Positions 21,570 through 39,253 of a stretch of 64,000 nt of DNA are shown here, in pieces. The stretch's first letter is position 1, and every line of letters begins with the position of its first letter. A program made the translations under genes and the position numbers. Under the pieces are notes generated by a model. The model had not been told where the DNA came from and did no database searches. It worked only from the letters and a program-made list of their open reading frames with translations. Source of the stretch: Candidatus Methylacidithermus pantelleriae (GTDB lineage: Bacteria; Verrucomicrobiota; Verrucomicrobiia; Methylacidiphilales; Methylacidiphilaceae); the NCBI RefSeq assembly GCF_905250085.1, contig NZ_CAJNOB010000067.1:1-64000 (forward strand), given 5' to 3'.

Positions 21570-22577
21570 ATGGTTGAGCGGAGCGCGGTAGAGGCTTGCT
21601 ACCGGTCCATTTTAGGCCGAGAACCTGAAAACGAGAGGGTCGTCCTAGATTGGCAGAATGGCGCAAATTCTCTGGAAGAGCTAATTGCGGCATTTCTCAA
21701 ATCAGAGGAATACATGTTTCGGTCGGCCGCTTCTAGTATGGAACGTATTATGGAACGAGGCTATTGGAATGCGCCTTCACGTATCGATGTGGATGTCGTT
21801 CCAGAGAAACTGAAGGCTTTGTTTGAGCGTCACCGGTTTCAGTGGGAGTCTCTTGGAAAAAATGAGCCTTTCTGGTCCGTTTGGACTCATGAGCGGTTCA
21901 AGAGGGCGAATCTTGACAGCAAGGGAGTTGAAGAATTTTATGCTAGCGGCAAGGCGGAAGTGGATCTCATTGATCTTTTTGCACAACGAAATGGTACACC
22001 TGTGCCGCGAGGACTGTGCCTCGAGCTGGGCTGTGGTGTGGGTCGCGTTACCATCCATCTTGCTCGGCGTTTTGATTACGTTCTTGCGATTGATGTTTCA
22101 AAAACCCATTTGGAGCGCTGCCAGGAACAGCTGGCGCATCTTGGAATGAAAAATGTGGAGTGCAAACTATTTCGGTCATTCGATGACCTTTGTCATTTCC
22201 CGCCGATAGACTTTTTTTATTCGGTAACTTGCTTACAACACAATTGCCCTCCGGTACAACGGTGTGTCCTTGATTCCATTTTGAGTAAGATTACGCCAGG
22301 TGGAAGCTTCTTTTTCCAAACTCAAACCCATCGGCCCGGGTATCGATTTGACGCCGATGAATACTTGTCTAGCCCCATCGGCACTATGGATATGCATTGT
22401 CTTCCGATGCACGAGATTTTCCAACTTATCGAAAAACACCGTTTGTCTCTTCGTGAGGTCCTAATGGATGGGAGGACCCGCCTTTATGGGTCTCACACCT
22501 TTTTTGGTTTCAATCCCGCGACTCCCTCCTGTGCCGTTCCCTACGTCGCGGCGACCGTCGAGAATAGCAGCCGCTAA
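21570..22577 (+). CDS. SAM-dependent methyltransferase with N-terminal DUF4214-like segment
   Basis: 335 residues. Residues 5-50 (ACYRSILGREPENERVV and ELIAAFLKSEEY) resemble the DUF4214 repeat found in surface and glycan-linked proteins. Residues 145-300 form a class I methyltransferase with motif I CLELGCGVGRVT (150-161), the acidic end of strand two in VLAIDVS, and a TPGGSFFFQTQ strand-five region. Substrate unknown; the pairing suggests polysaccharide or cell-surface modification. GC is lower than in flanking housekeeping genes, and the stop overlaps the convergent gene by four bases. A transferred gene is possible. Confidence 0.78.
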   Translation: MVERSAVEACYRSILGREPENERVVLDWQNGANSLEELIAAFLKSEEYMFRSAASSMERIMERGYWNAPSRIDVDVVPEKLKALFERHRFQWESLGKNEPFWSVWTHERFKRANLDSKGVEEFYASGKAEVDLIDLFAQRNGTPVPRGLCLELGCGVGRVTIHLARRFDYVLAIDVSKTHLERCQEQLAHLGMKNVECKLFRSFDDLCHFPPIDFFYSVTCLQHNCPPVQRCVLDSILSKITPGGSFFFQTQTHRPGYRFDADEYLSSPIGTMDMHCLPMHEIFQLIEKHRLSLREVLMDGRTRLYGSHTFFGFNPATPSCAVPYVAATVENSSR

Positions 22578-23731
22578 GGGGACATCTCTTGGATCTTCTG
22601 AATGACGCCCTGGTAAATGCGAACAAAATATTCCACTTCCTCTTCTGTATTATCTTTCCCTAGGGTGACCATCAGGTTACTGCGAACTACTTCGCTGGGT
22701 AGCCCCAGAATGGCTAGCGTTTGATTTTTTCGCTCCGAAGAGATGAGACACGCCGGACCGGTGGCGACGGCAACGCCCCGGAGATCGCAAAGCAAGGCCT
22801 GCGCCTCGCCTTCCGCTCCCGGTACACTCCAATGAAGTTGATAAGGGATCCGATCGGGGCCTGGAGGGGGCCCGTGCCAGAGGATGGTAGGGATTATCTC
22901 ATTAAGCCGGCTCCAAAGAAGGGCTTGGAGCTTTGCCACGTGATCCATGCGAAGGGAAAGTTCCTCCGAGGCTCGCTGGCAAGCAACGCCTGCGCCTACG
23001 ATTCCCGGAAGGTTTTCTGTTCCGGGGCGGAGACCCTTTTCTTGTATCCCTCCGTAGAGAAGGGGAGCAAGGGGAGCATCCCTTCTTCGATACAAAATCC
23101 CCACCCCTTTCGGGCCATAAAAGCGGTACGGAGTCGCCGAAAGGAAACTCACCCCCAAAGTTTCGACGTCGATCGGGAGCCATCCCACTGCATGGGAACC
23201 ATCCAAAAAGAGGGGAACGCCAACCCTTTGACACACTTGAGCTAGCTCGCGCACTTTCTGGATAGTGCCCAGCTCATAATGGCCCCAGTGAAGCGCCACC
23301 AGTGCGGTGTCTTCTTGCAGGGCCTCTTCCAGTCTACTGGGGTGAATAAACCCTTGCCGATCTACATCGAGCCAGCTTATGCGCCATCCATTGGCTTCCA
23401 GCCATTGGATCGGACGCAGGAGCGAAGGGTGTTCCACTCGGGAGCTTATAACGTGGCCCGGCCTGTTTTTTTTCCAGGCTCGAGTCACTCCCTGGATGAC
23501 TAGATTGGCAGCCTCTGTTCCACCCGAACAGAAAAGGATTTCTCCGGGATCTTTGGCGTGCAGGAGCCTTGCGACCTGTTCTCGAGCTTGTTCCAGAGCC
23601 TGACGAGCTCGCACGCCGTAACGATGGAGACTGGCCGTACCCCCAGGGCTGCTCAAAAAAGAAAGCATCGCTTCCCGGACCTCCGGTAAGACCGGCGTGC
23701 CAGACTGGTGATCAAAATAGATGTAACCCAT
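22574..23731 (-). CDS. NifS/IscS-type cysteine desulfurase homologue lacking the PLP lysine
   Basis: Fold-type I aminotransferase class V protein of 385 residues, closest in pattern to NifS/IscS. Retained: YFDHQSGTPV start, GGTEAANLVI (70-79), catalytic-type His101 in VEHPSLL, Asp177, GLRPGTEN (233-240) and the mobile-loop Cys328 in ATGPAC. Changed: the Schiff-base lysine of SGHKxYGPKG is Arg203 (TPYRFYGPKG, codon CGC); the PLP-contacting Gln of DxxQ is His180 (DGSH); the NNE motif is HYE. It therefore looks like a pseudoenzyme or one with altered chemistry. No iscU or sufU lies nearby. Confidence 0.8.
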   Translation of the reverse strand: MGYIYFDHQSGTPVLPEVREAMLSFLSSPGGTASLHRYGVRARQALEQAREQVARLLHAKDPGEILFCSGGTEAANLVIQGVTRAWKKNRPGHVISSRVEHPSLLRPIQWLEANGWRISWLDVDRQGFIHPSRLEEALQEDTALVALHWGHYELGTIQKVRELAQVCQRVGVPLFLDGSHAVGWLPIDVETLGVSFLSATPYRFYGPKGVGILYRRRDAPLAPLLYGGIQEKGLRPGTENLPGIVGAGVACQRASEELSLRMDHVAKLQALLWSRLNEIIPTILWHGPPPGPDRIPYQLHWSVPGAEGEAQALLCDLRGVAVATGPACLISSERKNQTLAILGLPSEVVRSNLMVTLGKDNTEEEVEYFVRIYQGVIQKIQEMSP

Positions 23732-23796: not shown

Positions 23797-24552
23797 TTAA
23801 CGTGAGCGGCGAGTTTGCTCGGTTTGGGTCCGGGAGTAAATTGTGCCAAACCATTGGTCGACCAAGCACAATCCAAAAAAAACCCCATAGGGAATCGAAT
23901 AGTACAACGAAAAGGTAACTGAATTGAGTCCCAAAAGGAACGTGGAAGCCAAAAGATAGTCTTGCCACCCTTTTTTCCAGATCTTCCAGTTTTCCTGGAA
24001 ACCGGTCGCACACCTCCAAGCCGGGGTCCCGTCCAGATAGCGGCAACAAGCGACCCCACAAAAAGGGATCCCAAAAAGCGTTCCGGGTGCAACGAATAGG
24101 CCGAGCACCGAAACCGGAAGACCTAATAGACCGACCAGCACCCCAAAACCTATGCCCGTCCACAGGAGCAAGGGAAGGATCAGGGTGGGCACGGCGATCG
24201 TCAATTTGGCAGCCCCTTCTTTGGCGTAGGCAACCCACCGAGCGGGGTTCCAGGAAGGAAGTCCTTCTGGTTTGCCATCCTTGGCCCGTCGCAAAACCTC
24301 AAAGGTGTACCCGAGAGCCAGCCAGAACGTAAGAGCGTTAACCAAAAGGACGGCCCATAGAAAGCCAGTTACTTCGCCTCCCTTTGCTGCCTGAGGAGCA
24401 AGCCCAAGCAGCACCGGGTTAATCAGGAGTGTGCCTCCAAGGAAAATCTTTCCAATCCAGTAGCGGTCCTTGAGGAGAACACCAAAAGCGGCTTTGATGT
24501 CTTCAAAAAGTTCTTCTCCGGTCCAGGTCACAGGTCTCGGTGCCCCGCTCAT
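23797..24552 (-). CDS. Polytopic membrane protein of unknown function
   Basis: 251 residues with about five to six hydrophobic segments (roughly 38-55, 64-85, 118-140, 140-165, 200-225, 225-240). Segment pattern and loop composition resemble DUF4013-type membrane proteins, but I cannot confirm this. A short soluble N-terminus (TGEELFEDIKAAFGVLLKD) precedes the first helix. It lies between the desulfurase-like gene and acs, all on the minus strand with gaps of about 60 bases, so the three may form one transcript. Confidence 0.65.
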   Translation of the reverse strand: MSGAPRPVTWTGEELFEDIKAAFGVLLKDRYWIGKIFLGGTLLINPVLLGLAPQAAKGGEVTGFLWAVLLVNALTFWLALGYTFEVLRRAKDGKPEGLPSWNPARWVAYAKEGAAKLTIAVPTLILPLLLWTGIGFGVLVGLLGLPVSVLGLFVAPGTLFGIPFCGVACCRYLDGTPAWRCATGFQENWKIWKKGWQDYLLASTFLLGLNSVTFSLYYSIPYGVFFGLCLVDQWFGTIYSRTQTEQTRRSR

Positions 24553-26839: not shown

Positions 26840-27628
26840 ATGATGCGTGACACTGGTTCTCCCCAGTCGGCATGCCCCCTCGGAGGGGGTACATGGATCT
26901 GGAAAAGACTTTTTCCTTCCGTCCAGCAAACCGCGTTTTGGTTGGTTGGATGGATGGGGATTGAGTTTGTAGTCGTGGTTGTAGCTCTCTCCATGGATCC
27001 GGTATGGGAGAGGGCGCTTCTGGCGCAATCGAAAAACCCGTTATGGCGCGAAGTTGCGGAACGAATCAGCTACTGGGGAGATTTTTTTCCCGGAGTTTTT
27101 CTTGTGGTCTTGGTTCTTTGGATCGGGGCCTTTGTTGGCCACAGAAAGCACTGGCGCGAGCGAGCCTACGCCATTCTCGTAGCGGCCACGCTCGCGGGGC
27201 TTTCGGCGGATCTTCTCCGAATCGTATTAGGTCGGCCGAGGCCCGATGCCACAGTGAAAGCTTGCCTGCAGGAGCTAGGAACTCTTCCCAGGCCCTGGCT
27301 CGTTCTTCCCACTCCTTCTCCTCCCGGTCGACTCACCGACGGTTTGTACGGCTGGCAGGGAAAGGATCTTTTCCATAGCTTGCCGTCGGGTCATGCGGCC
27401 AGTGCTAGCGCAACCGCGACCGTTCTTTCCATCGAATGGCCGAGCTTACTACCTTTTTGGATGTGTGGCGCGGCGAGCGTGCTCTGGTCTCGAGCAGTTT
27501 TGGGCAGACATCGCTTTTCCGATCTTGTGGCCGGCATGGTTTTAGGGCTTGCTTTTGGCTTGCGGGTGGCTCCGAGAACTTCCAGGGGAACTCTCGTTAA
27601 AGGGCACCGGAGCCGGAGGGAGGAGTAG
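26840..27628 (+). CDS. PAP2-family membrane phosphatase
   Basis: Integral membrane phosphatase of the PAP2/undecaprenyl-pyrophosphate phosphatase type, 262 residues. The three-part phosphatase signature is complete: RIVLGRPRPD, PSGHAAS and SRAVLGRHRFSD. Hydrophobic helices surround these motifs at about residues 32-52, 85-103, 112-130, 190-205 and 225-245. Substrate could be a lipid phosphate or undecaprenyl-PP; not resolvable from sequence. Its 3' end overlaps the convergent gene by 32 bases. Confidence 0.85.
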   Translation: MMRDTGSPQSACPLGGGTWIWKRLFPSVQQTAFWLVGWMGIEFVVVVVALSMDPVWERALLAQSKNPLWREVAERISYWGDFFPGVFLVVLVLWIGAFVGHRKHWRERAYAILVAATLAGLSADLLRIVLGRPRPDATVKACLQELGTLPRPWLVLPTPSPPGRLTDGLYGWQGKDLFHSLPSGHAASASATATVLSIEWPSLLPFWMCGAASVLWSRAVLGRHRFSDLVAGMVLGLAFGLRVAPRTSRGTLVKGHRSRREE

Positions 27629-37831: not shown

Positions 37832-38205
37832 GGGGGCGCAAACGGGATTCGATTCCCGAAAGCCGCTTCCTGTGGCAAGCCGAGGTTGCAGGCTGGCCTC
37901 GTTAAAAAGCCTGCGAACAACTAAGTGCCAACGAAGAATTGGCTCTGGCAGCCTAAAGGATCGCTGCCACGCCGTCTGGTTGTGGCCCGTTCCGGCCGGG
38001 TCGCCAGCGGCGCAGGTTTGTTGCCGGACACCAGGGGAAGAGGCCGCTCCTACCCCTGGTAGAACTCACGGGCGGCTCGAAGAGGGCCAATGGGCTTGTG
38101 GCTTCCTGCCCGGCCGTCTTCGAATCGGTTCCAAGAAGTCACTAAGCTTGTAGAAGCAGGAAAGGGGTCATCGGGAAGACGAGGGTTCGACTCCCTCCGC
38201 CTCCA
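37832..38205 (+). ncRNA. ssrA: Transfer-messenger RNA (tmRNA)
   Basis: One-piece tmRNA, about 374 nt. The 5' end GGGGGCGCAAACGGGATTCGA pairs through GGGGGCG (37832-37838) with CGCCTCC (38198-38204); A38205 is the discriminator and CCA is not encoded. The T arm GGGTTCGACTCCC is at 38183-38195. The tag frame resumes at GCC 37927 after CTAAGT and reads ANEELALAA, then TAA at 37954-37956. The LAA end is the usual ClpXP degron. SmpB is encoded nearby. The 3' 38 bases overlap the antisense end of purM. Confidence 0.95.
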
Positions 38206-39253
38206 TGGTGTTATGATGATCTTCCGGAGATTTTTTGGGAACCAGATGAACCACCCGGCGACGGCTTCGAATGACCCGGCCAATGAGGAAAACTCGGCCC
38301 AAGGTTTGCCGGCATCTTTCCCACTGGTTCTCCGGTAGGACGGCCACAAGCCCAATTCCCATGTTAAAGACTGTGTAGGCTTCATTCCAGGAAAGATTCC
38401 CTTGCTGGAGAAGCCAAGAAAAAATTCGAGGCACTGGCCAGCTCTGGAGCCACAGTTCTATTCCCATTCCTTCCGGAAGAATCCGAAGGAGATTTTCCGG
38501 TAGCCCTCCGCCGGTAATGTGTGCCAGTCCACGTACCTGAAAGCGACGGAGGATTTGGATTTCTGGAAGGTAGCAACGGTGAACCGCAAGAAGAATCTCT
38601 CCAAGGGGACGCCGAAAACCTGGTGGTTTTTCTGTGAGGGGAAAGCCTGTTTTTTCTAGGATTTTACGGACGAGCGTATACCCATTGGTATGAAGTCCAT
38701 GGGAAGGTAGGCCCACCAGGATATTGCCCGGCTGGATCTTGCTTCCGTCAATCCGCTGCGATTCTTCGACAACCCCGACAATAGTTCCCACAAGTTCGAA
38801 GTGCCCGGGTTGAAACGTGTCCGACAGCTGGGCGGTTTCGCCGCCGAGGAGCGTGCAATTCCACCGACGGCAGGCGGTAAGAATCCCTCCGAGAAGCTCT
38901 TGGAACATGCGTGGTTCCAGGCGAGCTACCCCGAGGTAGTCCAGAAAAAACAGGGGTTTAGCGCCGACCACAGCAATGTCGTTAATACAATGATGGACAA
39001 GGTCTTGTCCCACTCCCCGGTACTTTTGGAGGGCCGTCGCGAGAGCCAGTTTCGTTCCCACCCCATCGGTGCTTGCCACAAGAACCGGTTTTCGGTAGCC
39101 GGGGAAGCGCGCGCGAAACAGTCCGGCAAAACCACCAAGCTCCCCCAAGCACCGGGGGTCTTTCGGTTGCCGACGGCTCCGTACGAAAAGCTGGCTTTTG
39201 AGTTGCCGTGCCAGGCCTAACGACACACCGGCTTCCTCGTAACGAGAAGACAC
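38168..39253 (-). CDS. purM: Phosphoribosylformylglycinamidine cyclo-ligase PurM
   Basis: AIR synthetase of purine synthesis, ATP-dependent closure of the imidazole ring. 361 residues from GTG 39253, which begins SSRYEEAGVSL (family start YxxAGVD). Blocks: VASTDGVGTKLALA, DLVHHCINDIAVVGAKPLFFLDYLG, LLGGETAQLSDTF, GLPSHGLHTNGYTLVRKI and HITGGGLPENLLR. A weak ribosome binding site leaves the start somewhat open. The last dozen residues (MEAEGVEPSSSR) are encoded by the strand opposite the tmRNA T arm, so the C-terminal tail is not a normal part of the family. Follows purF by 50 bases. Confidence 0.9.
   Translation of the reverse strand: MSSRYEEAGVSLGLARQLKSQLFVRSRRQPKDPRCLGELGGFAGLFRARFPGYRKPVLVASTDGVGTKLALATALQKYRGVGQDLVHHCINDIAVVGAKPLFFLDYLGVARLEPRMFQELLGGILTACRRWNCTLLGGETAQLSDTFQPGHFELVGTIVGVVEESQRIDGSKIQPGNILVGLPSHGLHTNGYTLVRKILEKTGFPLTEKPPGFRRPLGEILLAVHRCYLPEIQILRRFQVRGLAHITGGGLPENLLRILPEGMGIELWLQSWPVPRIFSWLLQQGNLSWNEAYTVFNMGIGLVAVLPENQWERCRQTLGRVFLIGRVIRSRRRVVHLVPKKSPEDHHNTMEAEGVEPSSSR

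Follow-up and report, generated by a model that had tools for sequence, protein, structure and literature searches.

Lys-less IscS homologs and the protein in the window

The Schiff-base lysine of IscS, Lys206 in Escherichia coli, is normally regarded as indispensable. ColD-type enzymes, which are PMP-dependent enzymes of fold type I, have this lysine replaced by histidine; they resemble the protein described here in that the lysine of the PLP fold is replaced while the pocket remains, but belong to a different family (DegT type). In E. coli IscS, the K206A and Q183E substitutions each abolish activity, while the K206A protein retains some PLP and the R354K protein stays active (PMC9978102). 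In A. fulgidus IscS the lysine is replaced by aspartate, and PMC7585200, which attributes the facts to Marinoni 2012, Pagnier 2014 and Yamanaka 2013, describes this protein as having no desulfurase activity and as donating a cysteine ligand to the [2Fe-2S] cluster on IscU. The same paper reports that IscS1 of Methanosarcina acetivorans lacks the catalytic lysine and proposes a role for it similar to that of A. fulgidus IscS (PMC7585200). A search of open-licence papers recovered none on Lys-less IscS in the Verrucomicrobiota.

The window analyzed here is a stretch of 64,000 nucleotides from Candidatus Methylacidithermus pantelleriae, a member of the Methylacidiphilaceae. It contains a gene for an IscS/NifS homolog with arginine in place of the lysine (referred to as Arg-type), with the following features:

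22574..23731, minus strand: Arg-type (Lys-less) IscS/NifS homolog, 385 amino acids, intact, ATG at 23731 and stop at 22574
23123..23125, minus strand: codon CGC for Arg203, at the place of the Schiff-base Lys206 of E. coli IscS (DNA and alignment)
23276..23278, minus strand: codon for Tyr152, at the place of Asn155 (alignment)
23192..23194, minus strand: codon for His180, at the place of Gln183 (alignment)
23201..23203, minus strand: codon for Asp177, at the place of Asp180, conserved in 59/59 relatives (alignment)
23429..23431, minus strand: codon for His101, at the place of His104, retained here and Ser or Gln in the two sister genera (alignment)
22748..22750, minus strand: codon for Cys328, the active-site cysteine of the mobile loop, conserved in 59/59 relatives (alignment and model)
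22670..22672, minus strand: codon for Met354, at the place of the canonical Arg354, which most clade members have replaced by Ile or Leu (alignment)

The preliminary description of this locus had reported an intact frame of 385 codons, which we confirm and place on the minus strand, and a TPYRFYGPKG motif with Arg203 at the lysine position, which is borne out by the DNA. Since all three bases of CGC differ from those of the Lys codons, a single-base error is excluded as the origin of Arg203. The reported changes of NNE to HYE and of DxxQ to DGSH were also recovered, the latter in place of DAVQ. The claim that the substrate-side residues are kept holds for His101 and Cys328, but the residue taken for a third one, Arg235, is the arginine of the RxGTEN stretch, and the change of the canonical Arg354 to Met354 had been overlooked. 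Thr200 and Tyr202 align with Ser203 and His205.

The protein is a homolog of the class V aminotransferases (Aminotran_5, E 2.7e-59) and can be aligned over its whole length with IscS/NifS proteins of solved structure. Its best match in NCBIfam was TIGR03402 (NifS), with 313.3 bits as compared to a cut-off of 530.75, and it scored under the cut-off of every curated NCBIfam desulfurase family; the match to PF01041 (DegT type) was weak (23.4 bits). An AlphaFold model (28 relatives) had a mean pLDDT of 90.9 and resembled the structures of IscS from E. coli (1p3w; Z 51.3, 1.7 A over 372 residues), IscS from A. fulgidus (4eb5; Z 50.1) and NifS from H. pylori (5wt2; Z 45.6), and this confident IscS-like model agrees with the earlier suggestion that the fold is retained. 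The loop that carries the cysteine (residues 327-333) had a pLDDT below 50 and is predicted to be flexible.

With A. fulgidus IscS (4eb5, 4eb7, 4hvk), the window protein shares the IscS fold, the replaced lysine, the cysteine of the mobile loop and the replacements at the Gln183 and Arg354 places (Ala and Leu in A. fulgidus). It differs from that protein in having Arg rather than Asp at the lysine position, while A. fulgidus IscS retains Asn155 and has Asn at the place of His205. M. acetivorans IscS1 likewise lacks the lysine, as judged by its description, but is archaeal. The Group I desulfurases IscS, NifS and MisS have in common with the clade of the window protein the full-length fold, the loop with the persulfide-forming cysteine, the Asp180 equivalent and, in many members, an ISC-type operon; unlike them, the window protein is without equivalents of Lys206, Asn155, Gln183 and Arg354, the residues expected of an active desulfurase.

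Active-site residues in the verrucomicrobial clade

An alignment of 59 verrucomicrobial relatives contained Arg (48), Gly (6), Gln (4) or His (1) at the lysine position, and no Lys, which goes well beyond chance. Cys328 and Asp177 were present in all 59, and His101 (47/59), the His205 equivalent (46/59) and Ser203 (40/59) in most of them. The Asn155 place was mostly occupied by His (39/59), the Gln183 place by Ala and the Arg354 place by Ile or Leu, with Arg in four proteins from genus g2, as compared to Arg354 in 22/22 of the Lys-type proteins in the same alignment. Conservation of Arg203 among orthologs is thus seen in most of the clade but breaks down in the nearest genera, where this place is occupied by Gly (g3) or Gln (g2); these genera have also lost His101 and replaced Thr72 by Trp, with the cysteine retained. 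By its residues, the window protein is the least eroded of its family. In the part of a set of 60 related genomes that was read, the best matches had no Lys, except where only Lys-type paralogs were found.

Column conservation across the 59 aligned members revealed no substitute lysine conserved throughout the clade. The best columns were position 80, with Lys in 83% of the clade and Gln in the window protein, and position 208, with Lys in 80% of the clade and also in 73% of the canonical proteins. The statement that Lys is never present in the clade had to be rejected; one further member beyond the 59 (L223/L235, genome G350) has Lys (AAG) at the Schiff-base place. Orthologs of this kind had been regarded in the preliminary description as evidence against its reading, yet in this protein the Asn155, Gln183 and Arg354 places are occupied by His, Ala and Ile. 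Its lysine is possibly a reversion and could serve as a useful natural test. Elsewhere, a protein from genome G042 (L023, 577-1725) has His at the lysine place (SPHHFYGPKG), as in PMP-dependent enzymes, and two very divergent relatives from small genomes of family f4 (L207 and L213; branch length 1.83 changes per column) also have Arg there, with the motifs SGHRLGGPKG, AHHD and DATHG.

Judging from these residues, desulfurase activity of the window protein is very unlikely, because Lys206 and Gln183 are both changed and position 354 is Met, not Lys; the change of Arg354 alone proves little, since R354K leaves E. coli IscS active. An internal aldimine with PLP would be impossible at the usual place without Lys206, and with Gln183, Asn155 and Arg354 replaced as well, sulfur would not be released from L-cysteine. 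Annotation pipelines will nevertheless call the Lys-less proteins cysteine desulfurases. The interpretation that we favor, with moderate confidence, is that these proteins form a lineage with an IscS fold that has lost the desulfurase chemistry and has been kept for its structure and for the cysteine of the mobile loop. The window gene would then probably not be a broken gene but encode a former enzyme that has been maintained because of a single cysteine. One aspect fits a pure scaffold poorly: Ser203, His205, His101 and Asp177, and with them much of the PLP site, are retained in most other members of the clade, more than a pure scaffold would require, and the K206A protein of E. coli IscS still holds some PLP.

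An active enzyme with a different chemistry, in which PLP or PMP is bound non-covalently and Arg, or the His at the Asn155 place, acts in acid-base catalysis as in the Lys-replaced PMP-dependent enzymes of fold type I, seems unlikely to us. The conservation of Asp177, His101, the His205 equivalent, Ser203 and Arg, the regular replacements, such as that of Asn155 by His, which resemble a remodelled pocket, and the PLP still found on E. coli IscS K206A (PMC9978102) would all suit such an enzyme. The pocket is, however, eroded in the family of the window protein, which itself has Tyr202 for His; in the sister genera His101 has given way to Ser or Gln, the Arg to Gly or Gln and Thr72 to Trp, while the cysteine stays. 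Moreover, amino acids would bind poorly because Arg354 is gone in nearly all members. With Lys, Asn155, Gln183 and Arg354 all replaced, the loss of desulfurase activity is better supported than a new chemistry.

Distribution and gene context

Contigs in GTDB were scanned for the Arg motif, with locus counts that are lower bounds and many loci located on contig fragments; the matches listed were nearly all from the Verrucomicrobiota, with a few from Nitrospirae and archaea. A scan of genome contigs with the query protein alone gave no confirmed relative, because the query peptides are too divergent. The lineage is patchy and not phylum-wide, since a strict DNA pattern matched only 2/289 genomes in a sample of the phylum. 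At the class level, a protein search identified a close Arg-type member in 25/188 genomes, and ISC-type IscU was found in 20/188 genomes, all of which were among those 25 (hypergeometric 1e-22, a statistic that ignores kinship).

Among the 80 loci listed, many of which are fragmentary, IscU was located within 1 kb (<=1 kb) upstream in at least 27/80 and downstream in at least 6/80, a gene for Mrp/ApbC downstream in at least 26/80 and an Rrf2 regulator upstream in at least 22/80. In family f9 and many other Verrucomicrobiota, the gene order is Rrf2/IscR-like regulator, IscU, Arg-type IscS and often Mrp/ApbC, and many members of the clade are thus encoded with the protein that is the partner of A. 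fulgidus IscS. In archaeal contigs, the order is Arg-type IscS, TusA, Lys-type IscS and IscU, such that the pseudo and the real IscS form a pair in one operon (L070, 4785-7784; L073, 824-3925; L082, 2204-5302; L090, 4666-7648). A Pedosphaera-like group (L119, 2918-4105; L067, L088, L105, L106, L115, L139) has no IscU nearby; a small ferredoxin-like gene follows the Arg-type gene, which is often preceded by metallo-hydrolase-like and desaturase-like genes.

The idea that the Arg-type protein always accompanies IscU was rejected. IscU is not the partner everywhere, because the complete genome G019 (family f8) encodes the Arg-type protein and no NifU_N protein, and the genome from which the window is taken has no ISC-type IscU, only a SufU-like scaffold next to a SufS-type gene. 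This SufS-type homolog (SGHK) adjoins SufU on contig C44, and the genome also contains SufB/D genes, one TusA, one Mrp and two Lys-type homologs (L002 and L003), in which the catalytic residues are present except for Ser in place of Asn155 in L003. A second, canonical desulfurase, raised as a question in the preliminary description, is thus present, and the checked genomes of the family also have Lys-type paralogs. In the Methylacidiphilaceae, the neighbors of the Lys-less gene are not Fe-S genes; in the window they are:

23797..24552, minus strand: DUF4013 membrane-type protein, 251 amino acids, 65 bp upstream of the Lys-less gene
26840-27628, plus strand: PAP2 gene, on the opposite strand to the Lys-less gene

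In 12/12 Methylacidiphilaceae loci compared, the DUF4013 gene was the immediate upstream neighbor of the Lys-less gene, which makes its product a candidate functional partner, and in 10/12 a PAP2 gene was the immediate downstream neighbor.

We infer that the protein ancestrally worked alongside IscU in the assembly of iron-sulfur clusters, where Cys328 on its flexible loop would reach the scaffold site. There it may ligate the nascent [2Fe-2S] cluster, as in the IscS-IscU pair of A. fulgidus, or relay a persulfide obtained either from a desulfurase with the lysine or from a carrier of the TusA type. Such a role as a cluster ligand or in persulfide relay is the best reading for the clade, because of the invariant cysteine, the context of IscU and Mrp and the flexible loop. 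In the Methylacidiphilaceae, the protein would have persisted with its cysteine after ISC-type IscU was gone, and its partner is probably another one, such as SufU, an Mrp/ApbC protein or the neighboring DUF4013 protein. A more tentative proposal, for which we see a reasonable but less than even chance, is that some bacterial ISC-type systems form a lineage in which the only operon-borne "desulfurase" cannot release sulfur, and in which its cysteine either takes sulfur from TusA, a Lys-type IscS or sulfide, or makes it a cluster-ligand subunit. If so, sulfur mobilization and scaffold work would be split between separate proteins. The clade, with about a hundred sampled bacterial genomes in which the lysine is replaced, often in ISC-type operons and with an invariant loop cysteine, offers a case in nature where the two jobs of IscS, sulfur release and the provision of a cysteine in the scaffold site, come apart, by which the role of the cysteine becomes testable.

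In IscS dimers, residues are shared between the subunits, and the Lys-less protein could be a pseudo-subunit that regulates sulfur flow, either by pairing with a Lys-bearing desulfurase as a heterodimer or by competing with it for IscU or TusA. This seems quite improbable. The archaeal operons with Arg-type and Lys-type genes side by side, together with TusA and IscU, and the Lys-type paralogs in the family of the window genome are what it would lead us to expect, but in the Verrucomicrobiota the Lys-type genes are outside the operon, the identity of about 33-40% is low for a hybrid dimer, and Cys328 would not have to be invariant.

Phylogeny and selection

A phylogenetic tree was inferred with most active-site columns left out. 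The verrucomicrobial proteins were all placed on one side of a branch with support 100/99, and the separation of the Arg-type proteins from Verrucomicrobiota, Nitrospirae and archaea together from the Lys-type proteins had a support of 79/77 only. A. fulgidus IscS was placed with Lys-bearing archaeal IscS proteins (99/97), and the window protein does not belong to that lineage; because of this grouping, the Asp of A. fulgidus IscS arose separately from the Arg lineage. The puzzle so far known from A. fulgidus and M. acetivorans now extends to bacteria, apparently through a separate event.

The dN/dS values were 0.08-0.16 in genus g2, 0.13-0.26 in genus g3 and 0.05-0.27 in family f9, and the clade is under purifying selection. 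The possibility that the gene is decaying and heading for loss, to which the long terminal branch of the window protein (0.84) and the lower conservation of active-site residues in the Methylacidiphilaceae than elsewhere might point, is already contradicted by these values and is highly improbable. Apart from G012, an 83% complete genome for which no close match was listed, all genomes of the family that were compared have an intact frame; the cysteine is invariant, and the position downstream of the DUF4013 gene is conserved. The original view of a selected pseudoenzyme or of different chemistry, and not of a decaying gene, is supported by the absence of Lys across the clade, the dN/dS values of 0.05-0.27, the model and the separate Lys-bearing homologs. 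That the protein is an ordinary desulfurase, its lysine lost by sequencing error or replaced by another one, is hardly credible, for although L223/L235 has Lys at the site, it still has no equivalents of Asn155, Gln183 and Arg354, CGC is three bases away from the Lys codons, Lys is absent also in relatives from independent assemblies, and there is no conserved substitute.

The window also contains a tmRNA gene:

37832-38208, plus strand: tmRNA gene (145 bits)
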